Source: a virus. From it: a stretch of DNA of 64,000 nucleotides. Of the stretch, positions 4,723 to 38,056 are shown piece after piece. The stretch is taken from the IMG/VR virus record IMGVR_UViG_3300013126_000012, positions 1 to 64,000 of that record, one strand, 5' to 3'. Below the pieces are notes generated by a model that was given only the letters and a program-made list of their open reading frames with translations, had not been told where the DNA came from and made no database searches. Both the position numbers and the translations under genes were made by a program. Every line of letters starts with the position of its first letter. Within the stretch, counting starts at the first letter, position 1.

Positions 4723-6363
<1,641 letters not shown>

Positions 6364-8535: not shown

Positions 8536-9696
8536 TTAGAATGGGTTTTCTTGTCCTTCACCATCAACACCAGTATTGAAGATGTCCTTCATTTCGGTTG
8601 CCATATGCTTTTGGATAATTTGCTTAACAAAGGTTCTTTCAGAATCCGTACCACCAGATGCATCAAAGAAAGGAAGGATTGATACCTCAGCGGCTTCTGA
8701 TAAAGAAAACCCATCTGCCAACAATTCACATACGCGCACCGTCATACGAGTGGATACCATTGTGGTAAGTTTACCATCTTCTGATCTCCATTCTTTACGA
8801 GTTGCATCTGCAATGTCTGCTACTGCATGAATCAAACTGCGGTTCACGGTTGGGAATCGTTTTGTCAATAAATCTTCTTCTTGGGATAGTGACAAGATAT
8901 CAACTTCAATGATTTCAAATCGATCCATTAATGCTCGGTCCAATACCCGAGTGGATGTATATTCGGTACCAATGTTTGCTGTTGCAATAAATGATACACC
9001 TGATGCAACTCGAATGGTAGGTGAATTGATATCTTCATCCAATCGCAGATACCTTTGACCCTCATCTAATACTGTCATCAAGATGTTCCAAGCCTCAGGG
9101 TGCGCACGAGACAACTCATCCAATAGAATAACGGCATTCTCGGTTTGAATTGCCTTGACAAATGCCGATTCATCAAACGATGTTTGACCATCAACGAAAT
9201 GCGTATTACCAATCAAGGTTGCTCGAGGGTCTTGCGTTGCACCCAAGTTAAAATAATAGAAAGGTCGATTGGTTGCCACGGGAAGATCTTTTGCGGCTTG
9301 CGTCTTACCACAACCTGCAGGGCCAACCATCATGATGTTTTTACCGCGCACTGCAGACCGAACCAAATATTTCCATTTGATGTCGGACATTTCCAATGTT
9401 GCAGGCTTAATTTTATAAGCATTCTGAATCAAACTAAGTACTGCATCTTGTTCTTGTGGCATAGGTTGTGGTGTTGGTTGTGATTGTTTAATGTCTTCTA
9501 ATTCAATACCGGACTTGTTCATGCGTTTGGCTCGGCCGGTTTCTTCATCAAACAACAATATCTCATCATTGTCAAATGCATGCTTAATCATGATAGGACG
9601 AAACAAGTTGGTAATGTCTTTGTTTGTACCAAACTCGATAATTTGCGGATTGCCATTTACTAAGGTTGGCACACCAATAACTTTTTTGTTTTTCAT
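8536..9696 (-). CDS. MoxR/CobS-type AAA+ ATPase
   Basis: A 386-residue ATPase. Residues 1-95 are an N-terminal extension; then Walker A GPAGCGKTQ (about 123-131), Walker B AVILLDELSRAHPE, sensor 1 region FIATANIGTEY, and an arginine-finger segment ALMDRFEI. The layout matches MoxR/CobS AAA proteins that work with VWA partners, and the VWA gene follows directly. ATP-driven remodelling of a metal-centre or virion complex is the general role of the pair; the target here is unknown. The gene has its own leader and ends in a strong terminator, so VWA and AAA levels may be set separately. Confidence 0.9.
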   Translation of the reverse strand: MKNKKVIGVPTLVNGNPQIIEFGTNKDITNLFRPIMIKHAFDNDEILLFDEETGRAKRMNKSGIELEDIKQSQPTPQPMPQEQDAVLSLIQNAYKIKPATLEMSDIKWKYLVRSAVRGKNIMMVGPAGCGKTQAAKDLPVATNRPFYYFNLGATQDPRATLIGNTHFVDGQTSFDESAFVKAIQTENAVILLDELSRAHPEAWNILMTVLDEGQRYLRLDEDINSPTIRVASGVSFIATANIGTEYTSTRVLDRALMDRFEIIEVDILSLSQEEDLLTKRFPTVNRSLIHAVADIADATRKEWRSEDGKLTTMVSTRMTVRVCELLADGFSLSEAAEVSILPFFDASGGTDSERTFVKQIIQKHMATEMKDIFNTGVDGEGQENPF

Positions 9697-10261: not shown

Positions 10262-12109
10262 TCACCTTAAGTATTCGTTTTTAATATTTAGTTCTAATTT
10301 GGCCTGAGCTAGCCATGTTTCTCGACTGTAACTTGCCCAATGCGTTATGGTTGGAAGTTGATTTAATATGTCTGTAACTACGCGTGCATATACAATTGGT
10401 ATAACACTATCATCGTAATTTGTAAAATTTGGTTCTTTTTGCTGCATGAGTTTCCATACATCGGCAGCTAATGGATACCGTCGGTTTGCTCGTTCAACAT
10501 TATAACCAGAATAAAAATCGCTACCTGGATTTAATTCTGTAAGGCCGGTTTGTTTTGTGTCTCGAATTAATTCGTCAACTGTCATTGACATTTCGCAATT
10601 CATTGAATATACAATGTTGACAGTTTGAGGCAATCCAGCAAAAGATTTAACCTCACTGTTTTGAATAGATAGGTTGGTAGGTCCTGCCGGCAATCCTTTA
10701 AAACTTTCAATTGTGCAGTCTTTTAATTCTAATAGACCCGTAATGTTTGTCGACAATGCTTCAAAAGAATCAATATCCATGTGTCGAAGTACTAAAGTCT
10801 TTGCAATTCGCGGAAAATTTTCAAATGATGCTGGTTGCGGAGTTATATCAAATGTATTAACTTGTTTAAATGCAATAGGCGAATATGGTATATCTACTTT
10901 GTATATGATGTTTAGATCTGGTGCAGATACATATAATTTATCTGATTCCTGAAATATCATTTCGCTTTTTATTTTTTCTAAAAGATTGGATCCGCCTTGT
11001 ACATAATGATATAAAATATATTTTACTTCATCAGTAGTCGTAGCTAAACGCCGGTCCTTAATCATTGCAGAAATTTTTTCTTGAATCTTTGGATCTGACC
11101 AACGCGTCACGGTATCTAACCCAGTATCACAATACAATGTATCTTTTAATTTGAATATGCCTTGTTTGTTTGTTTGTACTGCACCTAACAATCGATTAAT
11201 TTCGTCTAAAAATCCAATTGGCGGCGTACCATATACTTTTTGTTCTGCTTGATACAATACGTTGCTTGGATCTTCTAACGAAACAAACGGTTTGATTGCA
11301 ACGCGTGCTACAGGATTTTTAATGTTCAAATCATCATTACGAACTAAATATGCAACCAATGTTCCAGCTTCAACATCATGTTGAACATAATGTGCATTGA
11401 TTCCAGTATATAAATTCATGCAGCTTGTCCATCCACGACCCGTACTCATTCCTGCTACATCGTATCGATGTTTTGAAAATACAATATAAAACGATTTAAC
11501 TTTGTTTTCTCGATACAATTTAACTTCTGGAATTTTGTTATAATTGTCTACAAGCTTATTGATATGTTTAAGCGCTTCTTCTTTGATTTGTTTGCGAACA
11601 TCTTCCATTGGACGCTGGCCCATCAACGTTTCTCGGCCCTTTTCATCTTTTTTGATGTATTTTTCAATTTCTTTTAATTTGTGTTGAATTTCAATTTTAG
11701 TAACAAGACCAGTAATCCATTTAGACACTTTTGTTTTACGTCCATATTCATCTGCTACCGTACCCGATATCAAATCTTCCCAATCAGGCATACGCGTACT
11801 GTATTCTGGTTTACCATCTATACGGTCTATACGATTAATTATGTCTCGAATTTCATACCAAAACCCAGTATATTCATCACTCAAATCGCTAATATCCATG
11901 TCAAATTCTTTAGACTCATATGGTACGCCGATGCGATCCAATCTACGTGATGATTTAGTATCTGGCAATGCTGCCAATGCACTCAACACTGAATCTTGTT
12001 GTTGTTCAATGTTTGGATTACGTTGCATAGAAACATATTCACGTGCTTTATCTAAAGGCAGTGCTTCTTTGATCAATTGAACTTCTAAAAGTGTTTTCAA
12101 TCTAATCAC
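10262..12109 (-). CDS. Large protein with head-targeting-like tag and LRR-like segment
   Basis: A 615-residue protein starting with GTG at 12109, whose G overlaps the upstream TAG stop. The N-terminus MIRLKTLLEVQLIKEA matches the tag shared by about ten proteins here, with L-L-E at 7-9 and I-K-E at 13-15 as possible cleavage points. The middle is alpha-helical and charged. A conserved-looking patch, AGMSTGRGWTSCMNLYTG, near residue 225 has the character of an active site. Residues about 430-500 carry leucine-rich-repeat-like units such as TIESFKGLPAG and EVKSFAGLPQ. No catalytic family recognised. By the tag I infer a packaged internal head protein. Confidence 0.7.
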   Translation of the reverse strand: MIRLKTLLEVQLIKEALPLDKAREYVSMQRNPNIEQQQDSVLSALAALPDTKSSRRLDRIGVPYESKEFDMDISDLSDEYTGFWYEIRDIINRIDRIDGKPEYSTRMPDWEDLISGTVADEYGRKTKVSKWITGLVTKIEIQHKLKEIEKYIKKDEKGRETLMGQRPMEDVRKQIKEEALKHINKLVDNYNKIPEVKLYRENKVKSFYIVFSKHRYDVAGMSTGRGWTSCMNLYTGINAHYVQHDVEAGTLVAYLVRNDDLNIKNPVARVAIKPFVSLEDPSNVLYQAEQKVYGTPPIGFLDEINRLLGAVQTNKQGIFKLKDTLYCDTGLDTVTRWSDPKIQEKISAMIKDRRLATTTDEVKYILYHYVQGGSNLLEKIKSEMIFQESDKLYVSAPDLNIIYKVDIPYSPIAFKQVNTFDITPQPASFENFPRIAKTLVLRHMDIDSFEALSTNITGLLELKDCTIESFKGLPAGPTNLSIQNSEVKSFAGLPQTVNIVYSMNCEMSMTVDELIRDTKQTGLTELNPGSDFYSGYNVERANRRYPLAADVWKLMQQKEPNFTNYDDSVIPIVYARVVTDILNQLPTITHWASYSRETWLAQAKLELNIKNEYLR

Positions 12110-12858
12110 TATAACTCCTGCCGTATTGCTAATTTAGGAAGATATGCTCTCCATGTAGTTAATATGTTTTCTTTTTCTTGTGGAGTAATTGTTTCATTTT
12201 CTACCCACATAGATAAATATTCATCTACTATCATTTTGAATGGCTGTTTGCTTTTCTTTGCCTTAAAATACAATCCTTGAAGCATTGCTGGTATTTCTTT
12301 TGGCAGCGTAAAATAACGAGCTGGAGGTAGATTACCAGCTTCAATTTTATTTCTAAGTGCTGCATCCGATGAAATGTATTTGCCATCAATTGTATTCCAA
12401 CCTGATTGCGTAACATGTTCAATTTCGTGACGCAACGTATTACGCAGATTCATTGCAATGCTACTTAATACGCGAGGATATTCTGCCGGATCAATTTGGA
12501 ACCGTACTTCAATTAAAGGTGGTTGATCTGCATTGCGTTTGGAATCATTGTATGCATCGCCTCCAAATCGAAGATCATCCAAACCTTCAATCCATTGCAC
12601 TTTGAGTTGCAAATAAAATTCTACCGGGATGGTTGCGTTCTCTACCTCTTCAAAATATATTTTAGGTTGAGTTTCATCATCTTCAATTTCTGGAACCGTT
12701 TCTCCTTGCTTGTAAAAGATCTTTACACTGCCGTATCGGCCTGCTGGATCGGATGCTGCTGTGTAGCTTTCTTTAATTATACCAAGCAATTTATTTGATA
12801 CGGTGGTTACTAAAGAATCATAGCGACCTTCTAAAAATAAACTCTTCATAGATATCAT
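12109..12858 (-). CDS. Tagged zinc metallopeptidase (HEIEH)
   Basis: A 249-residue protein with the zinc-binding helix LRHEIEHVTQSGW, HExxH near residue 144-148, and a candidate third ligand in LPKEIPAMLQG about 40 residues later. This is a gluzincin-like layout. The start at 12858 gives MISMKSLFLEGRYDSL, which aligns residue by residue with [12 protein letters not shown] of the lysozyme, Glu at 10; the longer frame to 12873 would use bases of the ATATTTATTA element. The gene overlaps the next by 1 nt. By tag and neighbours I infer a peptidase carried inside the virion, activated or delivered on infection. The target is unknown. Confidence 0.75.
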   Translation of the reverse strand: MISMKSLFLEGRYDSLVTTVSNKLLGIIKESYTAASDPAGRYGSVKIFYKQGETVPEIEDDETQPKIYFEEVENATIPVEFYLQLKVQWIEGLDDLRFGGDAYNDSKRNADQPPLIEVRFQIDPAEYPRVLSSIAMNLRNTLRHEIEHVTQSGWNTIDGKYISSDAALRNKIEAGNLPPARYFTLPKEIPAMLQGLYFKAKKSKQPFKMIVDEYLSMWVENETITPQEKENILTTWRAYLPKLAIRQEL

Positions 12859-12861
12859 ATT

Positions 12862-12876
12862 AATAAATATCACTCA
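12862..12876 (-). promoter_or_regulatory. GATATTTATTAATATGAT element before the peptidase gene
   Basis: The coding strand carries GATATTTATTAATATGAT, with the ATG at 12858 inside it. The same 18 bases occur at 53864 before another tagged gene and, with one change, before the plus-strand tagged gene at 38054. Confidence 0.45.
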
Positions 12877-13424
12877 AGTAGATTGTAATTCCAATAACGT
12901 TCTTTGTCTTGATTAAATGGATTGCCTGTTTGTTGATAATAACAATTGATACAAAGCATTTGAAGATTTTCTATGCAATGATTTGTTTCATCTCCATCAA
13001 TATGGTCTAAAAGTAACGGAACGGTATCATCGGTTATTCGGCGTTCTGCATAACCACAGGAATTGCATTGTTCTGGAAGTATTGCCAATGCCAACAATCT
13101 ATTTCGTAGCTTCCAGGTAGGATAGTTAGGATGCTTGCCTGTTAGGATATTATCAATTGAATATATACCTTTATTGGCTTTGCAGACGTCTTTTGGTATG
13201 CCTACCCCAAATTGATTTTTATGTAGCTCATATAAAGTTTTTTCAGTATCGCGATCTACGTACATTCGAGCATACTTTTTATAAGTAGTAAATGATATTT
13301 TAAGAAAGCGAGCAGCTTCGGCATTAGATTTAGTATTTTCCATTGCATAGCGTATTTCGCTTTCTGGAATATCTAATGCCGTTTTGCCGATACCATAAAT
13401 GTATTTGTATTGCTTTTCTTCCAT
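12870..13424 (-). CDS. HNH endonuclease with N-terminal HTH-like region
   Basis: A 184-residue protein. Residues 25-55 (SNAEAARFLKISFTTYKKYA) look like a helix-turn-helix. The C-terminal half has CNSCGYAE, then LLLDHIDGDETNHCIENLQ and LCINCYYQQTGN, which form the H-N-H/N core with two zinc-binding Cys pairs. It is most likely a free-standing homing endonuclease. The ATG at 13424 overlaps the upstream TGA; a TTG at 13427 is an alternative. It sits between a hypothetical gene and the tagged peptidase gene. Confidence 0.85.
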   Translation of the reverse strand: MEEKQYKYIYGIGKTALDIPESEIRYAMENTKSNAEAARFLKISFTTYKKYARMYVDRDTEKTLYELHKNQFGVGIPKDVCKANKGIYSIDNILTGKHPNYPTWKLRNRLLALAILPEQCNSCGYAERRITDDTVPLLLDHIDGDETNHCIENLQMLCINCYYQQTGNPFNQDKERYWNYNLLE

Positions 13425-13810
13425 CAATACAAACCATGTGTTTTTAAAATATTAACTGCATCACGTGGAAATGTTTTTGATGCATACATTTCCTTTACCA
13501 TGTCCCCTAACTTGTTAATTTTTGATATGAAGAACGTTGGATGAACTTTGGATCGTTGTTTAACTTCGTCGAGCCAAAAAGAATATATTGGATACTTATC
13601 ATTGAAACGATCTGCATCCGTACGATTTTCCCAATATTCAATTTGATCTTGCAATGGCCACATATGGATCGGAATGTTTGGATCTTTACGTATACCAGAT
13701 AATACCGGCATATTTTTATTTCGTTTCAAGTTTTTAGTAATAAACTTGTCCATAAGTATTGCAGAACGATCTTTTGGAGACATTCCTGTGTGTGCTGATT
13801 TTTTACCCAT
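13424..13810 (-). CDS. Hypothetical protein (128 aa)
   Basis: A basic, mostly helical protein starting MGKKSAHTGMSPKDRSAILM, with a Trp-containing middle (IHMWPLQDQIEYWENRTDAD). No family recognised. It overlaps the upstream 65-residue gene by 8 nt and the HNH gene by a few bases, so it is part of the clpS operon. Function unknown. Confidence 0.55.
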   Translation of the reverse strand: MGKKSAHTGMSPKDRSAILMDKFITKNLKRNKNMPVLSGIRKDPNIPIHMWPLQDQIEYWENRTDADRFNDKYPIYSFWLDEVKQRSKVHPTFFISKINKLGDMVKEMYASKTFPRDAVNILKTHGLY

Positions 13811-14000
13811 TTTGTTTTTGTTTTTCTGTTAATATAACTATTTTACGCCATGCATCTTCTGCACGGTATGCATATGTTTTAAACTTAATGATATCAAGTT
13901 TTTTTCGAGCTGCTTCCATACGGCGCATATTGCGATGATAAGTTGCATGCAACAATGCAATTCGGAAACGAATAATGTAATTACGAATTTTTCTTAACAT
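13803..14000 (-). CDS. Small basic helical protein (65 aa)
   Basis: MLRKIRNYIIRFRIALLHAT followed by MRRMEAARKKLDIIK: one long amphipathic, strongly basic helix. It overlaps clpS by 20 nt and the next gene by 8 nt. Possibly nucleic-acid or membrane associated. No family recognised. Confidence 0.5.
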   Translation of the reverse strand: MLRKIRNYIIRFRIALLHATYHRNMRRMEAARKKLDIIKFKTYAYRAEDAWRKIVILTEKQKQNG

Positions 14001-14259
14001 GTTTTTCTAGTGTTGCAGTTAAATTGCATTTAATAAAATATTCATATACGGCTTCGCAGGCATCATGCGTATCTATAAATACTGCACAACGGCCTACGTT
14101 ATGCACAATTAAAGCACATTGATGTGCTTGAAGTTCATTGTGATTGCACGCATCCATGATGCATCCTATTACATGATCAAACGTATTGTGTGTATCGTTG
14201 TGTAACACAACTTGATGCTTGCCTCGTTTAGAGGGTTTCTTCAACACTTTCTTTGACAT
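13981..14259 (-). CDS. clpS: ClpS-like adaptor protein
   Basis: A 92-residue protein. GKHQVVLHNDTHNTFDHVIG matches the ClpS core (hydrophobic strand, then N-D, then N-T-F-D-H-V). QCALIVHNVGRCAVF follows, and the end LTATLEKHVKK fits ClpS. ClpS delivers N-degron substrates to ClpAP/ClpCP; the conserved Asn-Asp and the HVxxxG region bind the N-terminal residue. A short N-terminal extension is present, as needed for ClpA control. The start at 14259 is chosen because upstream Met codons run deeper into the previous gene. Inference: the phage redirects host Clp proteolysis. Confidence 0.85.
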   Translation of the reverse strand: MSKKVLKKPSKRGKHQVVLHNDTHNTFDHVIGCIMDACNHNELQAHQCALIVHNVGRCAVFIDTHDACEAVYEYFIKCNLTATLEKHVKKNS

Positions 14260-14431
14260 CGCGTATAATTGCACATTGTTCATATAATTCTCGATCCGTA
14301 GCATAACGTAATGATTCAGTTAAAAAACGAATTCGTCGTTGTTTATCCCATGGGTCAGGCCATTCCCAATCTCCGGTTGCCATTACATTGATTGAATCAA
14401 TAAATAATTGTTCTATGAAATTCTGATTCAT
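14228..14431 (-). CDS. Small protein with UVR-like motif (67 aa)
   Basis: Residues about 40-64 (SLRYATDRELYEQCAIIRDV) fit the UVR motif pattern (A-x-x-x-E-x-Y/F-E-x-A-A-x-x-R-D) seen in UvrB, UvrC, McsA and ClpC partners. The N-terminus MNQNFIEQLFIDSINVMATG is helical. It overlaps clpS by 32 nt. Since UVR motifs also mediate Clp interactions, a link with the ClpS neighbour is possible but unproven. Confidence 0.55.
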   Translation of the reverse strand: MNQNFIEQLFIDSINVMATGDWEWPDPWDKQRRIRFLTESLRYATDRELYEQCAIIRDVKESVEETL

Positions 14432-14466: not shown

Positions 14467-15246
14467 TTATTTAATAATTAGCTTTTGGCCAATTTGAATA
14501 GTATCTGATTTTAATCCATTAATTTTTTTAAGTGAATCAACTGTAGTACTATATTTTTGCGCAATTACACTTAACGAATCTCCAGACTTTACAACGTACG
14601 TTTTACTAGTCTTAGATTTTGTAGTAACTTGTGAATATGTTTTCCCTTTATTTGGTCCTTGTTCGTATTTGTTTGTTTTAGGATTAAATCCAAACCATTT
14701 ACTTGATTCGGGACGACCCCAATTATCTTTAACTGTTTGTTTAAAACTTAAGAATTGTTCTCTGTTCCAATCCATTCGTTTACGAACTCCCGAATTTGAT
14801 TTATAATCAACTCGATTGATATACTCGTCAGCTGCAGCTTTCCAATTACTAGCATTCATTAACTTTACTGTTTTGTTTGTGGATTTCAATTCTCCACGAT
14901 ATGCAGCATTGATTAATGCTTGCCGTACATTTACAGGTAATGATTGATATGAATCGATTAATCCGGCAGCTTTTTGCGATGCTGCAAATAAATCATTTTT
15001 TAGTAATTCAATTGCTTCTGATTGTGTAACACCATTTTTAAATCGATTACTACGAATGTCCTGATCTGTTACTTTGTGTCCATATGCAATAGTAGGATTG
15101 CCTCCTTCAAAACTTTTATGTGGAAACCAACGTTGTTTTTTATCGTTCCATCCTGACTTAATACTATTCTCCCATTGCATTATTTTTTTCATGAAATCAT
15201 CAGTAAGTGCAGAACCTTCAGTCAATAATGATTTTAACCGTATCAT
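14467..15246 (-). CDS. GH24 lysozyme with LysM domain and head-targeting-like tag
   Basis: A 259-residue protein. Residues 1-10 ([10 protein letters not shown]) are the shared tag, ending in L-T-E. Residues about 20-170 are a phage-type lysozyme: [11 protein letters not shown] holds the candidate catalytic Glu and [11 protein letters not shown] the second active-site region, followed by [15 protein letters not shown]. Residues about 214-259 are a LysM peptidoglycan-binding domain ([20 protein letters not shown], then [10 protein letters not shown]). The chemistry is hydrolysis of the MurNAc-GlcNAc bond. A separate holin/amidase cassette lies at 22001-23414, so this enzyme may serve entry, packaged in the head or virion. 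That role rests on the tag and is inferred. Confidence 0.85.
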
Positions 15247-15647
15247 GATTTTTTACCCCAATTTTTTGCACCTTTCTTTCTGCATGCTGATAATGCTAAT
15301 GATCCATATGCCGATGGCCATGTTCCTCCATTGCGAGTGTATCGTGCTTTTACTTTGTAATAACATGAATCTCGTTTTGCTTTCTTTTCTTCTTCAATTG
15401 CACCTTCTGCCTTAGGAGTACGTTTACCCATTCCTACTTTTCGCTTCTGTGCGACTAAAGATGTCTTTTCTTTTTTATCAAATGAACTCCATGTTTTAGG
15501 AGTATCTTTAGAAACTTTACGAGATGGTCGGCATTTTTTAACGCCTTTGGTTTTATCATTACCGCAAGGACGTCCATGTTGATCTGTCCATTTTTCCTTT
15601 ACCCATCGGCGAAGGTCTTCTGACAATAAATCAACTAAACGTATCAT
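15243..15647 (-). CDS. Tagged basic DUF5872-like protein
   Basis: A 134-residue, very Lys/Arg-rich protein. It starts [15 protein letters not shown], the shared tag. Then comes [19 protein letters not shown], a basic middle and [15 protein letters not shown] at the end, as in DUF5872 proteins ([10 protein letters not shown] preceding). Six Cys may bind metal. The charge suggests DNA condensation in the head, like T4 internal proteins. It overlaps the lysozyme gene by 4 nt (ATGA). The start at 15647 follows AAGGATAAC at good distance and an ATATTTATA element. Confidence 0.75.
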
Positions 15648-15672: not shown

Positions 15673-16334
15673 CATAATGTAGGAATCAATTTATATGATT
15701 TGCATCCAAACAATAACATGGATCTAAAATCAGCTTGTTGAAATGCATCTAATGAATGTTTTGATAATCTGTTGAATCGTTTGATAACAGATATTATTTC
15801 ATTCCAATCCGTATATTCTAATACCGTTTCTACATAACTAACATCAACTAACATATCTGATACATTAGCATAGTCCCATTCAATATGTACTACGGGCATA
15901 ACTCGGTCATCATCTATATAATCAATACATAAATCTAATCCGCATTTGAAACTGGTACTTAAAATGCGAAGAAGTTCGGGACGTTGTTTTGCATATCGGC
16001 GTACTTGATCTGCTGCATCTCCTGATAATGGATATCTAAAAACAAATTGACTATGATCAAGAATCAATGCAGATTGTTCATGTTGAGTAAGCCATGGCTG
16101 AATGATAGCATGAGCGCCCTTTGCTGCATCGCCGTCTTTATACCATGTTGTATCATGTTCTAATGAGATGTTATTATGTGCGTAATATGCTTGTTCTATT
16201 TCGTTTAAATCAAATCCTTCATGATCTACATGACACGTATAATTTAATAATACATGTTCGGCAACGTCATCGGGCAATGGTTTAGAAATTTGAATATCAG
16301 AGTATACGGGTTTTGATATGTTATAACTTAACAT
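15672..16334 (-). CDS. Hypothetical protein (220 aa)
   Basis: An acidic soluble protein starting MLSYNISKPVYSDIQISKPL, with SLLFGCKSYKLI-like hydrophobic and Cys-containing C-terminus and a run of acidic residues CIDYIDDDRVMPVVHIEWDY. No family recognised. It has no tag. Its start overlaps the upstream tagged gene by 1 nt, placing it in the same operon as the tagged proteins. A structural or regulatory role cannot be told apart. Confidence 0.55.
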   Translation of the reverse strand: MLSYNISKPVYSDIQISKPLPDDVAEHVLLNYTCHVDHEGFDLNEIEQAYYAHNNISLEHDTTWYKDGDAAKGAHAIIQPWLTQHEQSALILDHSQFVFRYPLSGDAADQVRRYAKQRPELLRILSTSFKCGLDLCIDYIDDDRVMPVVHIEWDYANVSDMLVDVSYVETVLEYTDWNEIISVIKRFNRLSKHSLDAFQQADFRSMLLFGCKSYKLIPTL

Positions 16335-16732
16335 TACATCATGTTTTTTATTATGTTAGCAAAATTTGTTTTTGAATTGTTAAACTCAGAGTCAGCATCA
16401 TCAAACAATTTGGTTTCAAATGAATTCTTTGATTTTTTTATCAAGCAAACCGTTGCATCAAATTGTTCTAATCCATTAAGCAAATATACAATACCGAAGT
16501 ATGCATACGTATCACAAACTTTAGCAACAAATTCTGCTTTTGAAAATATTAATTTCAATGTACCCAAATCTTCAATAGGTGCACTAAATACATGTTCTTT
16601 GCGTTTTAATCCTAAATATGAAAACTTAGGAGATGTTTTCATTTGTTTTGCAAATTCTTTGAAAAATGGTTTTGCTAATTCTTTTGGATCAACAACATTC
16701 TTTTCAATCAATATGTTTTTTAGTTTCATCAT
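16334..16732 (-). CDS. Tagged hypothetical protein (132 aa)
   Basis: Begins MMKLKNILIE|KNVVD, matching the shared tag with Glu at 10 after L-I. The rest is mixed: FFKEFAKQMKTSPKFSYLGL, then a beta-rich middle around DTYAYFGIVYLLNG and an Asn/Lys-rich C-terminus. No catalytic motif recognised. It overlaps the upstream tagged gene by 4 nt (ATGA). Inferred internal head protein. Confidence 0.6.
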   Translation of the reverse strand: MMKLKNILIEKNVVDPKELAKPFFKEFAKQMKTSPKFSYLGLKRKEHVFSAPIEDLGTLKLIFSKAEFVAKVCDTYAYFGIVYLLNGLEQFDATVCLIKKSKNSFETKLFDDADSEFNNSKTNFANIIKNMM

Positions 16733-17148
16733 CGTGTTAGATCCTTATCATCTAGAGCTCCACCTGTTACCCAAGCCGTACAACTTCTAGATCCTGCACA
16801 TTTGAAATGAAGAAAATTGCAATATCCCAAATCAGCTTTTTCAACTGTTGCCATGGCATCTACGTTTTTTTCATTGCCTTCGATGCCCTTTTGCATACAC
16901 TTCCACATTTTATCTGAAACATCAAATGCTGCACAATTACCACATTTCATAGTTTTTGCTGTAGTTTCATCTATCTTCCAACGCTTAGCAGCAGTTTTCC
17001 AATAGTTGCCTGGTTTATCTGGATTAGCTGGACCATAATAGTATTTATCAATTGCAGTTTGCCGATTCTTAAGATTCATATCGATGTCCTGTGTTGCAAT
17101 GGGGCAACCTGTTTTTGCTTCAATCAATAAATGTTTTAGCTTTTCCAT
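16729..17148 (-). CDS. Tagged Cys-rich protein (139 aa)
   Basis: Begins MEKLKHLLIE|AKTGC, the shared tag. Nine Cys follow, notably MKCGNCAAFDVS, KMWKCM, GYCNFLHFKC and SRSCTAW. The spacing suggests a metal or Fe-S site reminiscent of HiPIP-like small proteins, though I cannot assign one. YYYGPANPDKPGNYWKTAAK forms a conserved-looking aromatic/proline patch. It shares the operon with the tagged genes on both sides. If packaged, it could bring a redox or metal centre into the cell. That is inference. Confidence 0.65.
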   Translation of the reverse strand: MEKLKHLLIEAKTGCPIATQDIDMNLKNRQTAIDKYYYGPANPDKPGNYWKTAAKRWKIDETTAKTMKCGNCAAFDVSDKMWKCMQKGIEGNEKNVDAMATVEKADLGYCNFLHFKCAGSRSCTAWVTGGALDDKDLTR

Positions 17149-23414: not shown

Positions 23415-23587
23415 GTATAAATATGATGTTGATTCAGTTTAATTAGATTTTTTTCATAAGTATTAATGTTCATTATGGTAATTTTAAGATTCCCTAATTC
23501 AAATTGCTCACCTGTTTGTGCTGAGAATCCGAATTCTACTGCGGATCCTACAAATCCTTTTCCAATAATACCAATTTTTAATTTCAT
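23411..23587 (-). pseudogene. Truncated UDP-sugar dehydrogenase-like remnant (58 aa)
   Basis: MKLKIGIIGKGFVGSAVEFG is a typical first strand and G-x-G-x-x-G dinucleotide-binding turn of UDP-glucose/GDP-mannose dehydrogenases. After about 25 residues the similarity ends, and the frame closes at residue 58. The full enzymes are about 400 residues, so this is a remnant or a small derived protein. It is still joined to both neighbours by ATGA overlaps, so it is probably translated. It lies exactly where the sugar operon meets the lysis genes, which fits a deletion of the operon's end. Confidence 0.65.
23416..23424 (-). promoter_or_regulatory. ATATTTATA element before the lysis cassette
   Basis: The 9-mer sits 2 nt before the ATG at 23414, inside the last codons of the remnant gene. 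If it is a promoter core, the transcript would be almost leaderless, so this copy may be coincidental. Confidence 0.3.
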
Positions 23588-24360
23588 AATGTTACTATAA
23601 ATTTTTGATTTGTTTGTGGATTAGAATAAATGGGGCTTCCCCATTTGTATTTAGCATATTCATGCCCAGCAATTTCCGAATTAATTCGTTGCTGTTCTTT
23701 TTCAGGTGTCATGGTTGTTAATGAAACAAAATGATAAAAATGCAAATTCCACGTTCTAATCATTTTTAAACCTGACATAGAACATTTTAAAAAGAAGTCC
23801 CAATCTGCTACCATACCCATTTCATAATTTTCATCCCATCCGCCTAAACGAATATAATCATACTTATTTATGAATATAGGTAATGTAGATCCACTTTCAT
23901 CTTGTTTATCGCCAGATGCATAATGATAATCAAATTGCCAAAATGCTTCTAAATCAAATGTTTTAGGATCTCTGCCTAGATCTTCTATAATAAATTGTTT
24001 AAATATGCTAGCATATGGTTCAATTTGATTAGGCGTAATTACCGAATTCGGTTCCCATTCTTCTTCTAGTGTTGTATCCCAAAATCTAGGAAATACATTA
24101 TCATCATTTACTATTAATATTTTATCATATTTAGCATTATATACGCCTAGGTTAGTTCCCCGACATAGACCTTGATTAATTTCTAAATTCAGTATATCAA
24201 TTGAATGTTTCCATCGTTCTAAAACATCTTTATTTAAGTCATAAAAGCCATCAACAACAACTATTATTTGATTTTTATTACGTTGGCCAGTAATAGCTGA
24301 TTTTAAGCACAAATCTAAAGCATCTGGACTTTTATATGTTGGTATAATTACTGATATCAT
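23584..24360 (-). CDS. Family 2 glycosyltransferase
   Basis: A 258-residue GT-A enzyme. MISVIIPTYKSPDALDLCLK is the usual start, IVVVDGF the nucleotide-contact strand, ILIVNDDNVFP the D-x-D metal site, and GGWDENYEMGMVADWDFFLK the acceptor/catalytic region with the E/D-D pattern. It transfers a sugar from a nucleotide donor to a growing glycan. The ATG at 24360 overlaps the upstream stop (ATGA). First of the left end of the surface-glycan operon. Confidence 0.88.
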   Translation of the reverse strand: MISVIIPTYKSPDALDLCLKSAITGQRNKNQIIVVVDGFYDLNKDVLERWKHSIDILNLEINQGLCRGTNLGVYNAKYDKILIVNDDNVFPRFWDTTLEEEWEPNSVITPNQIEPYASIFKQFIIEDLGRDPKTFDLEAFWQFDYHYASGDKQDESGSTLPIFINKYDYIRLGGWDENYEMGMVADWDFFLKCSMSGLKMIRTWNLHFYHFVSLTTMTPEKEQQRINSEIAGHEYAKYKWGSPIYSNPQTNQKFIVTL

Positions 24361-25046
24361 ATTGAAGCCCAATCAGTTAATGGGGATAACCATGCAGTTT
24401 CTCCATGAGTTGAATATCCTGGTATTGATGTTATTAATAATTCATTTAAATTGCGCAATTCTAAAAACATCTGATAATCATTAGGATGCGTAGATGCTGT
24501 ATGTTTTCTTAATATGTGTTCTATTCGTTTTAATGTAGATACTTTAGATGCAAATGTCATAGTAGTACTATTTGTAATTTTCCAATGGCATGAATTAGTT
24601 AAATACACGCGTGTATCTTCTGCACCCCCGTCGCAATATGGATTTCCACCATTTTGTGGACTCAAGTATTTATCTGGATGATCATATAATGAAACAAATG
24701 ATGCTCCCAATATAAAACCTTCCTGCAATATATTCAGCGAATCTTTCTTATGTAAATAATCATTTTCTACAAAATATACTATCTCATCATCGTCCCATTG
24801 CAACGCATTGTCTAAAGCTAAATTAAATGTTCCCGCACCATGTCCTATAGATACTTTTTGAATGTTATCGGGATGAACATACTTAGTGATCATCTTTAAC
24901 GTAACATCGCTGCAATTATCAGCTATGATATAAAGATCACAATTAGTAAATGTATTAACAAAATTATTTAAACATTTTTCATTATCAATGTAATTTGGTT
25001 TTTCCTTTTTGTAACCAGCATCGGATATTCTATAAACTATTTTCAT
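24357..25046 (-). CDS. GT-A-fold glycosyltransferase-like protein (229 aa)
   Basis: MKIVYRISDAGYKKEKPNYI at the start, LYIIADNCSD and GAGTFNLALDNAL follow, then EIVYFVENDYLHK, where E-N-D takes the place of the D-x-D metal motif. TNSTTMTFASKVSTLKRIE and PGYSTHGETAWLSP lie near the end. This fits a family 2-like glycosyltransferase fold. Donor and acceptor unknown. It overlaps both neighbours by 4 nt. Confidence 0.7.
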   Translation of the reverse strand: MKIVYRISDAGYKKEKPNYIDNEKCLNNFVNTFTNCDLYIIADNCSDVTLKMITKYVHPDNIQKVSIGHGAGTFNLALDNALQWDDDEIVYFVENDYLHKKDSLNILQEGFILGASFVSLYDHPDKYLSPQNGGNPYCDGGAEDTRVYLTNSCHWKITNSTTMTFASKVSTLKRIEHILRKHTASTHPNDYQMFLELRNLNELLITSIPGYSTHGETAWLSPLTDWASI

Positions 25047-26059
25047 ATCAGTGTTTTTATATATTTAACATAATTTTGGGAAGATTGAAATATATCCCCC
25101 CCAGATATTGTATTTTTTATATATTCATTAAATTTACCATGATCTATTTGATATTGAATAGAATCAAAAATTTGTTGTTTATTTAATTCTACTAATCCGG
25201 GATATGTATCAAATTTACCAATTTGCCCGCAGCCTTTAATTAAAACTGTAGGAATTCCTAATTGAATTGGTTTAAATGCTAATGTTGATGGGGCTGATAT
25301 AACCACCGCGGACTTTGCTATCAATTCGTCGATATTTTCTGAATTTGTTATAACATCGCATTCTAATAAACTGTTTACATATTGAACATCATTATGATAA
25401 TCTGGTTTATCAAGTCGTGCTTTAATTTTTACCTTTATTGGTAAATTAAAATGACCTGATAATTCTAAAATTCCAGATTCGTAAATAAATTCATGATTAA
25501 AATTAATAGGAAATATGGAACCTCTATTTCCTAGAAAATTAGTTATAACTAATATATGTTGAGGTTCAATTTTTACATTAGATAATGAATCGTTAGCAGG
25601 AATACCTCCATTACTAAATTCTATTTTAAAATCATAACTAGTACCAGATGCATCTTTTGTAACGTCTTCATTTCCATGAACATTGCCAATTACTTTAATA
25701 TTCCTACGTTTACATTCATTATAAAAATGCGGAATATTAAATTCTTGCATTTCTCGATTGTCGTCATAAATTACAAACTTATATGAACTTATATCAATAA
25801 AATCTAATAATGATTGATGAATACTATCACCATGATATTTTATGCCAGGCCCTTGAATTATGTTATTAAAATATTGTTTGTATTTATTAATTGCAACGAT
25901 TCGTTCGTCAATATCACCAATCCATGGCGTATTTAAACTAAACAATCCAACGCAAAATAAATCAATTTCATATTCATTAGATAGCAATGGTATTATAGGC
26001 CATAGTTTTTCTGCAACTCGATGATTTGTAAATAACAATAAAATTTTATTTTTTGACAT
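25043..26059 (-). CDS. GT-B-like protein (338 aa)
   Basis: Two Rossmann-like halves: KILLLFTNHRVAEKLWPIIP at the start and a C-terminal half with ELIAKSAVVISAPSTLAFKP and GIPTVLIKGCGQIG, as in GT-B enzymes (CDP-glycerol transferases, UDP-GlcNAc 2-epimerases, and relatives). It could be a glycosyltransferase or a NeuC-type epimerase that would supply the sialic-acid-like pathway; key residues do not decide. In operon with ATGA overlaps. Confidence 0.6.
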   Translation of the reverse strand: MSKNKILLLFTNHRVAEKLWPIIPLLSNEYEIDLFCVGLFSLNTPWIGDIDERIVAINKYKQYFNNIIQGPGIKYHGDSIHQSLLDFIDISSYKFVIYDDNREMQEFNIPHFYNECKRRNIKVIGNVHGNEDVTKDASGTSYDFKIEFSNGGIPANDSLSNVKIEPQHILVITNFLGNRGSIFPINFNHEFIYESGILELSGHFNLPIKVKIKARLDKPDYHNDVQYVNSLLECDVITNSENIDELIAKSAVVISAPSTLAFKPIQLGIPTVLIKGCGQIGKFDTYPGLVELNKQQIFDSIQYQIDHGKFNEYIKNTISGGDIFQSSQNYVKYIKTLI

Positions 26060-26759
26060 ATCGATTAGATCTAGGTAAACATTTAAATTGATCAGTTAAT
26101 GGCAAATAGGTGTTTTTATAGTTATGCAAAACAAATGTTTGATTTAATGCATTAACTTTAACATCTGGGTGTTTCCATAATGAATACATCATTGAAATTT
26201 GATCTTCAGTGTTCCATTTTGCTGTTTCAGAAAACCATGTTTTATTAAAATTACGTACGGTTTCGTTATTTCTTCGATATAATATACCATTTTCATATAA
26301 TCCGTTATTTGTTGGATATCCTTGTTGTTGGTATTCCGATCCTTGATTGAGAATCATTTCTTTTGGATCGCGAGGCGGAGTTCTATTAACAGTTTCATTT
26401 ACTTCTTGATATAAACAGGTACGATCACAATGTTTATGCACTGCCAAATCATAACCATCTAGATGCAATGAAAATAAATCATGCGGATCGTATGTAAAAT
26501 ATATTTCGTTATCCATCCATAACCAAGCATCATATTCTGGTAGCAATTCTTCTGGCGATGTTTTACATTTTCTAGCAGTCCATCTACCCGACCGCCATAT
26601 ATCCATTTTACGAATATCCCAAAAATCAGATTCTAAATAATCGCTATTAGTAAATGCAATATAATCTATACCATTTTTGTCATGTACATATGGTATAAGA
26701 TCTCCATATAAATAATCTGGTTGATCTGTGAATAATGCTGTATAAACTGCTAATTTCAT
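26046..26759 (-). CDS. DUF616-like glycosyltransferase
   Basis: With the ATG at 26759 (ATGA overlap) it reads MKLAVYTALFTDQPDYLYGD. AWLWMDNEIYFTYDP holds the D-N-E metal-site variant, and DLAVHKHCDRTCLYQEVNE and NNGLYENGILYRRNN match the DUF616 (TOD1/MUCI70-like) glycosyltransferase pattern. About 237 residues. A sugar donor cannot be named. Part of the glycan operon. Confidence 0.75.
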   Translation of the reverse strand: MKLAVYTALFTDQPDYLYGDLIPYVHDKNGIDYIAFTNSDYLESDFWDIRKMDIWRSGRWTARKCKTSPEELLPEYDAWLWMDNEIYFTYDPHDLFSLHLDGYDLAVHKHCDRTCLYQEVNETVNRTPPRDPKEMILNQGSEYQQQGYPTNNGLYENGILYRRNNETVRNFNKTWFSETAKWNTEDQISMMYSLWKHPDVKVNALNQTFVLHNYKNTYLPLTDQFKCLPRSNRYVKK

Positions 26760-27397
26760 GCTAAGCCTTTCCACGTTGCACCATTTTTTGTCCAATAATG
26801 GTTAATTTCTATTTTTGGCGTATAAAGATATGTATATCCAAGTTTAACTTGATCAATTGCCCAATATCTATCTTCTTTCCCTACTAATTTTTCATCAAAT
26901 GGATATTTTATTAAATGTTCTTTAGTATAAAAACAAAATGCATTATGTAAAAAATATCGTTCTTCAATATTTGAAAATAAATTAACAACGGGGTTATTTC
27001 CAAAATGACTCCAAATATATCTAGGTGTTATTTTTTTACCTTTGTATATCGGAATTTGCTTACCAAATACAGCAACATGCTCCTTTAAACATGTTTGAAC
27101 ATATTCATAATCCATTTGATGAATTTGCGAATGGGCAGATAAAATTAAAATGATATCGTTGTTACATTGGTTCGCCGCTTCATTGATAGATCGACCTGGA
27201 CTATAATTATCAATATTGAATATTCGTATATTTGTATTAAGCGAAAACAAATTTACAATTTCTATAGAATCATCATTGGAATTATTATCCATTATAATGA
27301 TTTCTGGATCTTTAAAATGATCAATAACTGATTGAATTGCAAAACCTATATATTCGGATTCATTTCGATTCCTAATTATAACTGAAATCTTATCCAT
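26756..27397 (-). CDS. Family 2 glycosyltransferase
   Basis: With the start at 27397: MDKISVIIRNRNESEYIGFA, then EIIIMDNNSNDDSIEIVNLF (donor loop) and ILSAHSQIH replacing the usual D-x-D. GKEDRYWAIDQVKLGYTYLY is the acceptor-side G-x-x-E-D motif. 213 residues. It overlaps the NeuB-like gene's stop by 8 nt; longer starts at 27412 and 27430 are possible. Confidence 0.82.
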   Translation of the reverse strand: MDKISVIIRNRNESEYIGFAIQSVIDHFKDPEIIIMDNNSNDDSIEIVNLFSLNTNIRIFNIDNYSPGRSINEAANQCNNDIILILSAHSQIHQMDYEYVQTCLKEHVAVFGKQIPIYKGKKITPRYIWSHFGNNPVVNLFSNIEERYFLHNAFCFYTKEHLIKYPFDEKLVGKEDRYWAIDQVKLGYTYLYTPKIEINHYWTKNGATWKGLA

Positions 27398-28187
27398 TAA
27401 ATCTGCCTGCATAGTTTGTTCTCGAATCATATTCTAATTCATTATAACCGGTACCGTGATCTATCATCATATCATTAATATAATTAATATATTTACGTAA
27501 TCCAAGTAGTTCATTTGGAAGTATTGCAAATTTATTATCTCTCCCTGGTAGATTGTTATCAATAGTAAAATGTTTTTCAATAACAACTGCGCCTAATCCT
27601 AAAGCAATTTTAGCGGATTCAATTCCTTCAATATGATCACTGTATCCAATTAGATTATGAATTTTTTTTAATTCAATCATTTTTGGAAGATTTGCAATTT
27701 CATATTTACCTGGATATACGGAAACGCAATGCATTAAATACAACGTTGATTTATTAAAAAAACTTATACTATGTTTAATTTCATCTAAAGTAGATGTACC
27801 GGTGGACATAAATACTGTTTTGAAATGATTATTACAATATTTTATTAAATTAATATTTCTAGATTCAAAACTAGGTATTTTAACAGCATCGCAATTTAAT
27901 TCAACTAATAATTTAGCATCATCGATACTAAAAACTGATGATAAAAATGAGATATTCATTTCATTGCAATATGCTATTAATTCTTCGTGCCGTTCCTTTG
28001 TTAGTTCAGCTTGTTCATATATTTCACGGCGGCCATCAGTATCCCAATCTCCTGATTTTAATCTCGATACAGACCAAGTTTGAAATTTTGCATAATCTGC
28101 ACCTGATTCTGCAGCTTCATGAATCATACGTTTTGCTAAATTCATATCACCGCAATGATTCCAACCAATTTCTGCTATTATTTTCAT
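27390..28187 (-). CDS. neuB: NeuB-like nonulosonic acid synthase, no SAF domain
   Basis: A 265-residue TIM-barrel enzyme. MKIIAEIGWNHCGDMNLAKR, YAKFQTWSVSRL, AVKIPSFESRNINLI, STGTSTLDEI, IGYSDHIEGIESAKIALGLG and VIEKHFTIDNNLPGRDNKFA match NeuB/LegI/PseI synthases, which condense PEP with an N-acetylated hexosamine to a nine-carbon acid. The usual C-terminal SAF (antifreeze-like) domain of about 70 residues is missing, so activity or oligomer may differ. With the NeuA-like gene (28779) it points to sialic-, legionaminic- or pseudaminic-type sugar. Confidence 0.88.
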   Translation of the reverse strand: MKIIAEIGWNHCGDMNLAKRMIHEAAESGADYAKFQTWSVSRLKSGDWDTDGRREIYEQAELTKERHEELIAYCNEMNISFLSSVFSIDDAKLLVELNCDAVKIPSFESRNINLIKYCNNHFKTVFMSTGTSTLDEIKHSISFFNKSTLYLMHCVSVYPGKYEIANLPKMIELKKIHNLIGYSDHIEGIESAKIALGLGAVVIEKHFTIDNNLPGRDNKFAILPNELLGLRKYINYINDMMIDHGTGYNELEYDSRTNYAGRFNG

Positions 28188-28188
28188 A

Positions 28189-28776
28189 TTATTTTCTTTT
28201 TAATAACCATATAAAATATGCAGAATCTTGTTTGCTTGTCGTTTCATATAGTAAATCATATGTTTGTAAAATTTGATCATAATTATGATATAATCTAGGA
28301 TGTTTTGGAGTTTCAAATTCTTTTTTCAATTCTCGTATCATGATAAAGTTAGGTTGCCAATTACTAATTAATTTTTTGATAATATAATCGGCTTTTTCGT
28401 ATTGTAAATGCATGAAATGGTCTGACACTAGAAATAAATCTAACTTTTCGATGCTAATAGTATCGATAATATCTTGAGAATCTCCTTCGAAAAAATTTAC
28501 TATATTTTTAATATCTGGATGCATATTTTCATATGATGCATCTTTAAATAAATCACTACAATTTAGATTCAATGATTTTTTTGCTAACCACATATAATAT
28601 AAATTTCGAGCAGGACCTGATCCTAATTCGAATACAGAGTTTAATTCTTGTATAATATTCTGTTGTTTTAATATATCAACTAATTCAATTGAATTTTCAT
28701 GTAATAATTGTCTAGCCGACATTCCGACTGCTGATTGATAGTTAGCAGGGAATCTTTCTTTTCCAAATTTTGCCAT
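28189..28776 (-). CDS. SAM-dependent methyltransferase-like protein (195 aa)
   Basis: NSVFELGSGPARNLYYMWLA near residue 47 is the SAM-binding motif I (hydrophobic-E-x-G-x-G). CSDLFKDAS and KLDLFLVSDHFMHLQYEK fit motifs II-IV of class I methyltransferases. It would methylate a sugar or sugar precursor in this operon. Lies 1 nt from neuB and 2 nt from the cytidylyltransferase gene. Confidence 0.75.
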   Translation of the reverse strand: MAKFGKERFPANYQSAVGMSARQLLHENSIELVDILKQQNIIQELNSVFELGSGPARNLYYMWLAKKSLNLNCSDLFKDASYENMHPDIKNIVNFFEGDSQDIIDTISIEKLDLFLVSDHFMHLQYEKADYIIKKLISNWQPNFIMIRELKKEFETPKHPRLYHNYDQILQTYDLLYETTSKQDSAYFIWLLKRK

Positions 28777-28778
28777 TA

Positions 28779-29345
28779 TTAACCTATTATTTTTTGTTTA
28801 ACTTGTTCTAAATCACTTTCATAATGAATATCGGTTGCGTGATCTTGAATACAACCAATTCTTTTACTAACCATTCCGTTTTTTAAATAATCAAACTTAA
28901 AAATTCTTACAGAACCACTTCTTTTATATGTTGGATTGATTGTAATTAAATCATCATAATTATTATCAATCATATATTTAATACACTCATCTAATGTATG
29001 TGTTCGATCCGGATTGTCTGGTTGTAACGCTATAACTAGATCGTATACTCCATTTTCAATTTTACTGCAAAAATCAATATACACGTCAGTAACCTCTGCA
29101 TCTTTTAATAAATGTTCGGGCCTAGCTGTCCATAATACATCATTTTTCAAAGCAATATCCCAAACTTCTGGACTTTCTGATGATACTACGATAGTAGGTT
29201 TGTATTTACTAGCTTTTGCATATTCAATTGAATATTCAATCATTGGTCTGCCATTTATTTCTTGAATATTTTTATTTTGTAGTCTAGTTGAATCTAATTT
29301 TGCTGGTATTAGTACTAATACATTTAAAATTTGTTTATCGCCCAT
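28779..29345 (-). CDS. neuA: NeuA-like CMP-sugar synthetase
   Basis: A 188-residue cytidylyltransferase. LVLIPAKLDSTRLQNKNIQE is the CTP-binding start (IPARxxSxRLxxKN in the family), followed by RPMIEYSIEYA, TIVVSSES, ALQPDNPDRTHTLDECI and SGSVRIFKFDYL. It activates a nonulosonic acid to the CMP form. It is about 40 residues shorter than usual enzymes of 220-230. Downstream of the hydroxyacid dehydrogenase with a 22-nt overlap. Confidence 0.82.
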   Translation of the reverse strand: MGDKQILNVLVLIPAKLDSTRLQNKNIQEINGRPMIEYSIEYAKASKYKPTIVVSSESPEVWDIALKNDVLWTARPEHLLKDAEVTDVYIDFCSKIENGVYDLVIALQPDNPDRTHTLDECIKYMIDNNYDDLITINPTYKRSGSVRIFKFDYLKNGMVSKRIGCIQDHATDIHYESDLEQVKQKIIG

Positions 29346-30274
29346 TCATATGCCTTTTTTTGTCCTTCCCACGTCATTCCTCCAACGTGTGGCGTAATTA
29401 ATATATTTTTTCCACTATTCATTGCTCGAAGTATTGGTGAGTTTGCAATGTTATCAAATTCATTTTCAATTACATCTGTTGCATACCCCGATATTAAATT
29501 TTCATCTAATGCCGTTACAATATCATCCTCATTTACAATTTCTCCGCGCGATGTATTTATAATATATGGTTTTTTTATACTATATCCAAGTAACTGTTTA
29601 TTAATCATATACTTGGTTTCATCAGACACATGTACATGAATTGATATGACATCGCTATGTTCTATCAGTTTACGTAATGAACTACATGTATAGTTTAATC
29701 GAAATCTATCATCTAATTCTGATGTTATAAATGGATCATATATTTTTACATTTGCGCCAAATGCATCACAATACTTAAACATTAATTTACCCAATCGACC
29801 ATATCCGATAATTCCTATATTAAGGTCTTTAATTTGACGTCCGATAAATTTAGTATAGTCCCAATTATAATTTGCTACATGTTGATTGGCAGTTGGTATT
29901 TTTCTCAACATTGCTAACATCAACCCAAAGGCCAATTCTGCAGTTGATGGTAATTCATTAATTAATTCATAATCATTGGTTAATGAATATATGTTGATAT
30001 TATGATTTGCACAATATTGGATGTCGATATGATTCATTCCAGTCGAACATGTATTAATTAATGATATCTTAGTATCTCTAAGTAATTCTTCATCAATTTT
30101 ATATGTTTGTTGATTAGGATTACAGAGTATAGTATCGATATCATGGTTCAAAAGAAATGTTCGTACTTCAGATTTCATTCCTTCTTCTAAATAAAAAATT
30201 TCACCTTTAGTAGATAATAATTCTAATATACCATCTAAATGTTTAACGGGAGTAATAACTGCTATTTTCATCAC
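29324..30274 (-). CDS. D-2-hydroxyacid dehydrogenase (SerA/PdxB-like)
   Basis: A 316-residue NAD(P) enzyme. LNIGIIGYGRLGKLMFKYC is the G-x-G-x-x-G NAD site, INTSRGEIVNEDDIV contains the catalytic-site Arg, and ITPHVGGMTWEGQ the catalytic His. The catalytic Glu is expected in VIENEFD. Oxidises D-2-hydroxyacids; the substrate is not identifiable. In this operon it may make or recycle a sugar-acid precursor. Overlaps its neighbours by 32 and 22 nt. Confidence 0.85.
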   Translation of the reverse strand: MMKIAVITPVKHLDGILELLSTKGEIFYLEEGMKSEVRTFLLNHDIDTILCNPNQQTYKIDEELLRDTKISLINTCSTGMNHIDIQYCANHNINIYSLTNDYELINELPSTAELAFGLMLAMLRKIPTANQHVANYNWDYTKFIGRQIKDLNIGIIGYGRLGKLMFKYCDAFGANVKIYDPFITSELDDRFRLNYTCSSLRKLIEHSDVISIHVHVSDETKYMINKQLLGYSIKKPYIINTSRGEIVNEDDIVTALDENLISGYATDVIENEFDNIANSPILRAMNSGKNILITPHVGGMTWEGQKKAYEWAINKF

Positions 30275-31214
30275 TGAATTCTTTTATAATTTGATCTATA
30301 ACTTGATATGTTGTATGGTTGACTTTAAAATCAATTAATTGTTTTGCCTTTTCTGTGTTTGCAAATCGTTTTAATATTTCATTATAATTTCCAAATACAA
30401 CATCACGAGATTCAAATATTAATTTAGATTTTGAATTCGTTTTATGTAAAATATATTCAGCAACTTCTTTTACAGTCGACTGTTCATCTGTTCCTAAATT
30501 AATTATTTCGCCATTGACAGTATTTAAATGTTGCGATAAGTTGTATAATCCATTCGCAATATCTAATGCATGACTAATCGATCGTGTTTGCATACCATCT
30601 CCATGAATTGTAATTGATTCACCTTTAAGAGCTTTATCGACAAATAATGGGATATGGCCGCCTGACCATGTTTTATTAGAACGCCATGATGCACAACCAA
30701 AAACTCTAACAACACAAGCACGTAAATTAGATTGTTGAATTTCATTAAAAATAAATTGCTCTCCATATAATTTAGATAATGCATACGAATACCGTTCATT
30801 AGTTGGAGGCCCTATAGTAATTGGCTCAGATTCTAAAAATGTTTGCGAATTACCATATACATCTGATGTTGATGTAAATATTAAAAATGCTCCAGTTTTA
30901 ACCGATTCGGATACCACCATTTCTATCATATGATAGTTTTCTTGCAAAACGCTAGAAGATTTAATAATGCCGTTAGCCGGCTTTTTCATCGAGGCTAAAT
31001 GATAAATAATATCAAATTTTTCTTTCCATAGATTTAAAAATTGAACTCGAGTTTTTTTTAATTCAAAATTTTTGTTAGACAACGCAGTTTTTAAATTTTC
31101 TGTATTTCCATATGACATATCATCTACGCCAATGACTGTATGTCCATTGTCTAATAAAAAATCTACTAAATGACTGCCAATTAATCCGGCTGCCCCTGTT
31201 ACTAATATTTTCAT
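30243..31214 (-). CDS. NAD-dependent sugar epimerase/dehydratase
   Basis: Extended SDR, 323 residues. MKILVTGAAGLIGSHLVDFL gives the G-x-x-G-x-x-G site, IYHLASMKKP the substrate loop, FTSTSDVYG the catalytic Ser/Thr, and ERYSYALSKLYGEQF the Y-x-x-x-K pair. HALDIANGLYNLSQ and STVKEVAEYI close the family pattern. Acts on a nucleotide sugar; likely a UDP-sugar 4-epimerase or dehydratase-type reaction. Confidence 0.88.
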   Translation of the reverse strand: MKILVTGAAGLIGSHLVDFLLDNGHTVIGVDDMSYGNTENLKTALSNKNFELKKTRVQFLNLWKEKFDIIYHLASMKKPANGIIKSSSVLQENYHMIEMVVSESVKTGAFLIFTSTSDVYGNSQTFLESEPITIGPPTNERYSYALSKLYGEQFIFNEIQQSNLRACVVRVFGCASWRSNKTWSGGHIPLFVDKALKGESITIHGDGMQTRSISHALDIANGLYNLSQHLNTVNGEIINLGTDEQSTVKEVAEYILHKTNSKSKLIFESRDVVFGNYNEILKRFANTEKAKQLIDFKVNHTTYQVIDQIIKEFSDENSSYYSR

Positions 31215-38035: not shown

Positions 38036-38056
38036 TATACGATATATATTAATATG
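38036..38056 (+). promoter_or_regulatory. AT-rich start element of the plus-strand gene
   Basis: GATATATATTAATATGATAC spans the ATG at 38054 and differs by one base from the element before tagged genes at 12858 and 53864 on the other strand. It may be part of a transferable gene cassette. Confidence 0.5.

Follow-up and report, generated by a model that had tools for sequence, protein, structure and literature searches.

A large T4-like phage, as placed by its sequence, carries a conserved block of small overlapping genes in which a gene for the ClpS adaptor lies next to a gene for a 67-aa protein with a weak resemblance to the UVR motif. It is proposed, with a probability of about one half, that the phage ClpS docks on the ClpC of a Bacteroidota host and alters degradation by ClpCP, and that the UVR-like hairpin most likely acts on the same enzyme. 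The ClpS assignment rests on family membership and predicted fold, while we infer the host phylum, ClpC as the target, that either protein binds and how the host is affected.

The gene block and its conservation

The window, i.e. the whole stretch of 64,000 nt that was analysed, belongs to a viral sequence record 159,586 bases long. The closest match to the DNA polymerase was that of Microcystis phage Mel-JY01 (45.5%) and the matches were T4-like phages; together with the reading of the ORFs, they provide the basis for the placement given above. The two overlapping ORFs of the preliminary description (13981-14304 and 14228-14431, both on the minus strand) are present, and are part of a series of four small minus-strand genes, each overlapping the next, in the order UVR-like, clpS, p3 and p4, followed by an HNH-like gene (Table 1). 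The last of these has the same position in loci L035, L040 and L042, and is probably a conserved neighbour outside the function of the block. Neither p3 nor p4 gave a confident family match in Pfam or PHROG, and no relatives of the UVR-like protein or of p4 were found in named phage records. The product of p3 was considered as a second UVR-like protein and rejected, its score being 16.3 (shuffled maximum, 14.8) with a poor alignment.

Table 1. Positions of the block genes, the neighbouring gene and the leader-bearing ORFs in the window
Feature	Position	Strand	Details
UVR-like protein, 67 aa	14228..14431	(-)	N-terminal helix, W-x-W-P-x-x-W loop, predicted helical hairpin with [Y/F/W]-E-Q-C-A-I-I-R-D
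ClpS adaptor, 92 aa from probable MSKK start	13981..14259	(-)	PF02617, fold match; ORF open from 14304
UVR-like gene/clpS overlap, 32 nt (probable)	14228..14259	(-)	ORF coordinates and start choice from relatives
p3, 65-aa basic protein	13803..14000	(-)	Overlaps clpS end by 20 nt; next in block
p4, 128 aa	13424..13810	(-)	Overlaps p3; final gene of conserved block
HNH-endonuclease-like protein	12870..13427	(-)	PHROG HNH endonuclease, E=1.4e-15; downstream of p4
MIRLKxLLxE-like leader ORFs	10262-12109, 12109-12858, 14467-15246, 15243-15647, 16334-16732
MIRLKxLLxE-like leader ORFs (remainder)	16729-17148, 38054-39388, 53331-53864, 61342-61617, 61647-62039

All four genes were present in 12/12 of the viral loci recovered in the first search, and wider searches found the block conserved down to approximately 45% ClpS identity; as loci overlap between searches, independent phages are fewer than locus identifiers. 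In the non-redundant set the UVR-like gene is upstream of every UVR-linked ClpS, and p3 and p4 follow clpS in all of the UVR-linked loci except L145, where the contig ends just after clpS. The dN/dS analysis (approximately 0.08-0.26 for clpS and the UVR-like gene) indicates that each of the four genes is under purifying selection. A tree of ClpS built on 71 columns places the UVR-linked phage proteins to one side of a branch, with a weak support of 52%. A second group of phage ClpS (L185, L187, L188, L190 and L194-L196) is without the UVR-like gene, p3 and p4; the neighbour of one of its members (L188:4962-5246) reads as a large terminase. As none of the UVR-linked ClpS lineages that were examined has lost the pair, the link between the UVR-like gene and ClpS is stronger than could be known from the window alone.

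Several other features of the window were noted. The T4-like late promoter TATAAATA was considered as an indicator of timing and set aside, with 16 matches against 13.7 by chance and no overall excess. The total for TATTTATA is likewise no higher than chance; 15/16 copies are on the minus strand, and many of these precede a gene on that strand by a short distance (e.g. 15664, 17817 and 62056). Ten ORFs, one of them a lysozyme/LysM protein, begin with a MIRLKxLLxE-like leader similar to those that target proteins to the capsid and carry a T4-type cleavage site, and their products may be packaged in the virion. ClpS and the UVR-like protein are without such a leader. It was also considered whether ClpS might handle phage proteins trimmed by a prohead protease, and this was rejected: cleavage after the Glu of MIRLKxLLxE would give new N-termini of G/D/K/A/N/I/V, not F/L/W/Y. 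One leader-bearing protein (12109-12873) has a HEIEH (HExxH) motif and is possibly a metallopeptidase, with no Pfam match. A GroEL-type chaperonin of 536 aa is encoded at 4723-6333 (Pfam Cpn60_TCP1, E=1.6e-85), and the ORFs at 23584-34893 read as glycosyltransferase- or sugar-metabolism-like genes, the G+C content being approximately 0.29 over 24-34 kb.

The phage ClpS and its N-terminal tail

The ORF at 13981-14304(-) matched PF02617 with an E value of 4.9e-15 and 55.5 bits, against a curated cut-off of 23. Its AlphaFold model (pLDDT 88.9) has the strand and helix order of ClpS, its best matches are solved ClpS structures (TM, normalised to the target, as high as 0.97), and the rmsd is 0.8 A to the structure in which M. 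smegmatis ClpS holds an N-degron dipeptide. Judged from family and modelled fold, the ORF certainly encodes ClpS, and the original assignment was right.

At the positions of E. coli N34, D35 and H66, which we take to be residues of the N-degron pocket, the window ClpS has N, D and H; loss of N-degron-binding residues, which the preliminary description had named as a result that would count against it, was looked for and not observed. Among the UVR-linked phage proteins the three residues are present in 37/43, 42/43 and 38/43, respectively, and in the cellular relatives each is present in 74/74 (these counts ignore relatedness). Asn is replaced by Asp in 6/43 of the phage proteins and His by Asp in 5/43. 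An Asp at the His position need not abolish binding, because UBR1 in the alignment also has Asp at or near the position of His66.

The protein resembles the Bacteroidota-type ClpS in its core fold, in the N-D...N-T-F-[DE]-H-V signature and QC[AST]..[VIT]H, and in an identity of approximately 43-49% to its best relatives. It differs in several respects. Where E. coli ClpS has T83, the phage proteins have Cys (43/43) in place of the Leu found in 70/74 of the cellular relatives, counted again without regard to relatedness; most phage members have 'C-x-[VI]-[FY]-x-D' where the hosts have 'C-x-V-K-x-G'; some have the Asp residues described above; and the phage tail is short and basic, while the host tail is longer and mostly acidic.

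The length of the tail depends upon the start codon. The ATG at 14304 is located within the UVR-like gene but is read in a different frame. Since an MSKK or MLKK start is found in nearly all of the relatives, and since an in-frame stop codon occurs shortly before it in six (L155, L162, L166, L183, L184 and L204), translation of clpS probably starts at 14259, with MSKK, giving 92 aa. The overlap with the UVR-like gene is therefore probably that given in Table 1, not 77 nt. In L139, L141 and L142 there is a Leu at the place of the Met, possibly encoded by TTG. Counted from MSKK, the phage tails comprise approximately 13-20 residues before V30, with a net charge of +3 to +7, as compared with a median of 22 residues and a charge of –4 in the cellular relatives. 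The tail of the window ClpS has approximately 14 residues before the core, as compared with residues 1-26 for the E. coli extension, is basic, and is of low confidence and unstructured in the model. In E. coli, the ClpA channel accommodates residues 2-15 of the ClpS N-terminal extension (NTE) in D2 and residues 16-26 in D1; delivery is inhibited when entry of the NTE is blocked, but it tolerates changes to most of the NTE sequence (PMC9663308). The short basic tail of the phage ClpS may change or abolish delivery.

Resemblance of the 67-aa protein to the UVR motif

The UVR motif assigned to the neighbouring protein was borne out only in part. Neither the 33 family members nor the phage record, when searched, contained a match to Pfam UVR (PF02151), and the protein was accordingly rejected as a member of that family. 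What stood was a resemblance at the level of profiles and residues. A profile of 27 phage sequences was compared with a profile built from four Bacteroidota genomes, which contributed 15 UVR sequences. The score was 23.4, whereas none of 60 controls with shuffled columns exceeded 13.5. By UVR subtype, the names of which are an interpretation from ORF length and context, the scores (shuffled maxima in parentheses) were 29.3 (13.4) for the bifunctional-nuclease type, 20.4 (12.8) for ClpC, 16.5 (10.9) for UvrB and 9.9 (17.3) for UvrC. The profile probability was 87% for the bifunctional-nuclease type vs 21% for the ClpC type.

The predicted structure (pLDDT 92.9) has three helices, of which H30-46 and H50-65 form a hairpin. 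Comparison of the hairpin with structures using Foldseek gave no significant match, a result to be expected because the hairpin is short, and sequence searches of the family against solved structures gave no credible hit. An aromatic residue at position 50 and E51 are conserved in 33/33 of the family, and R57 and D58 in 30/33. In the window protein, Y50, E51, R57 and D58 align with ClpC F436, E437, R443 and D444, numbered as verified against ClpC of B. subtilis; a stricter '[E/D]-aromatic-E' form was not found, position 49 being L/F/M/Y. The residues held in common with ClpC are general UVR residues. In S. aureus ClpC, F436, R443 and D444 are reported to participate in head-to-head contacts of the M-domain (PMC5699869). 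The profile scores above those of the shuffled controls and the predicted hairpin point to a weak resemblance to UVR.

The likeness to the ClpC M-domain/UVR motif therefore consists of the predicted helical hairpin and the aligned aromatic-E...R-D residues. The phage protein differs in being free-standing, in having an extra N-terminal helix and the W-x-W-P-x-x-W loop, and in lying below Pfam detection. McsA and MecA are small partners of ClpC in Gram-positive bacteria. Chains of McsA were among the non-significant Foldseek matches of the hairpin, with E values above 1, and no metal-binding Cys motif was seen in the phage protein.

Proposed action on host ClpC

The nearest cellular ClpS found were those of Bacteroidota, mostly Flavobacteriales, and the 80 cellular loci kept from the genome scan, a pattern-based search aimed by the phage sequences, were by title nearly all Bacteroidota. 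The host is thus probably a member of that phylum, as judged mainly from ClpS similarity. Genes of the window have A-rich leaders with a weak enrichment of Shine-Dalgarno-like words (29% vs 12%), which is compatible with such a host. UVR and Clp_N were searched for in three Flavobacteriaceae genomes (Dokdonia pacifica, L061; Tenacibaculum aiptasiae, L067; Aequorivita sinensis, L124) and in a Sphingobacteriia MAG (L090). In all four, one ORF of 850-864 aa has both the Clp N-domain and the UVR motif (ClpC), while the other Clp_N ORF, of 870-876 aa, is without UVR and, by its size, is probably ClpB. As only a single Clp ATPase has both features, the natural partner of ClpS in the genomes tested would be the M-domain-bearing ClpC, and both phage proteins may therefore act on it. 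No match to ClpP was found in the phage record, and its sole AAA_2 match, a 386-aa ATPase (8536-9696), was rejected as a Clp-type unfoldase; the phage proteins would thus depend upon the host protease.

The phage ClpS would dock on the host ClpC unfoldase and thereby shift the substrate choice of ClpCP. The role of the hairpin is the speculative part of the mechanism: it might mimic the surface through which the UVR/M-domain of ClpC makes contacts, or bind ClpS where ClpS meets that domain. A precedent for ClpS meeting a UVR hairpin, by analogy and not as evidence for these phage proteins, comes from M. tuberculosis, in which inhibition of ClpC1 by ClpS reportedly needs the M-domain residues D440 and R451, binding of ClpS to N-domain-deleted ClpC1 is lost when these are changed, and one of the two matches B. 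subtilis R443 (PMC6274998). Phage control of host proteolysis, as put forward in the preliminary description, is thus supported in part, by the ClpS call, the N-degron residues and the conserved pair, but not by Pfam UVR membership; its effect might be to degrade host proteins, to protect those of the phage or to inhibit the host protease. Counting against the proposal are the short basic tail of ClpS, the general UVR character of the residues shared with ClpC, the higher score of the bifunctional-nuclease-type UVR than of the ClpC type and the lack of a significant Foldseek match.

The last two observations also favour a hairpin unrelated to Clp, i.e. a small helical phage protein that may interact with UvrB/UvrC or with some other protein of the phage, and that stays beside clpS only through co-translation of the four overlapping genes. 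The absence of a Pfam UVR match and the two further uncharacterised genes that travel alongside are also in keeping with this explanation, which is a substantial possibility although somewhat short of an even chance; it fits less well with the retention of the pair in every UVR-linked lineage, with a ClpC-type resemblance that exceeds the shuffled controls (20.4 vs a maximum of 12.8), and with the lack of any for UvrC (9.9 vs 17.3). A more novel possibility, a two-component device in which ClpS brings new substrates to ClpC and the partner is a free-standing imitation of the M-domain that either breaks the head-to-head contacts or caps the contact between ClpS and the M-domain, is quite unlikely; broken contacts would switch ClpC on without a host signal.

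ClpS itself could be an inhibitor or decoy that occupies ClpC, and perhaps N-degrons, without delivery, so that host proteolysis would be damped and phage proteins would survive. The short basic tail (+3 to +7, against the cellular median of 22 residues and –4), the need for the E. coli NTE to enter the ClpA channel (PMC9663308) and the M. tuberculosis work (PMC6274998) all speak for such a role. It is nevertheless unlikely, as a pure blocker would not need the N-degron pocket residues that the window ClpS and most of its relatives have kept, and as most of the E. coli NTE can be altered without abolishing delivery (PMC9663308). That a host ClpS is carried passively, without a selected function, is highly improbable: ClpS genes do occur in several unrelated phages, but the dN/dS of 0.08-0.26, the conservation of the block to approximately 45% ClpS identity and, with a weak support of 52%, the position of the UVR-linked proteins on one side of the branch argue against it.

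Phage-encoded ClpS has been reported previously. Two reports propose that the ClpS proteins of jumbo phages (e.g. AMM43882.1 and gp708 of Agrobacterium phage Atu_ph07) feed targets to host ClpAP (PMC7824862, PMC6102473). The present protein, compared by description only, is similar in being a ClpS encoded by a phage; Atu_ph07 differs in encoding further Clp proteins of its own, and the passages concerned mention no UVR-like partner. No description of the UVR-like/clpS pair was found in full-text literature searches covering mainly open-access papers, and the conserved block appears to be new.

Earlier records of ClpS concern a few jumbo phages, and its function there is a proposed one. The occurrence of ClpS locked to a UVR-like partner in a widespread T4-like group provides a compact, testable case of phage control over host ClpC, in a phylum, the Bacteroidota, with little-studied ClpS/ClpC biology. 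Uncontrolled activation of ClpC is toxic to cells (PMC5699869), and a hairpin that acted on the M-domain would represent a natural means of regulating this protease. The presence of ClpS, in a fixed block of four genes, beside a protein resembling the ClpC hairpin suggests that these viruses redirect the destruction of host proteins.
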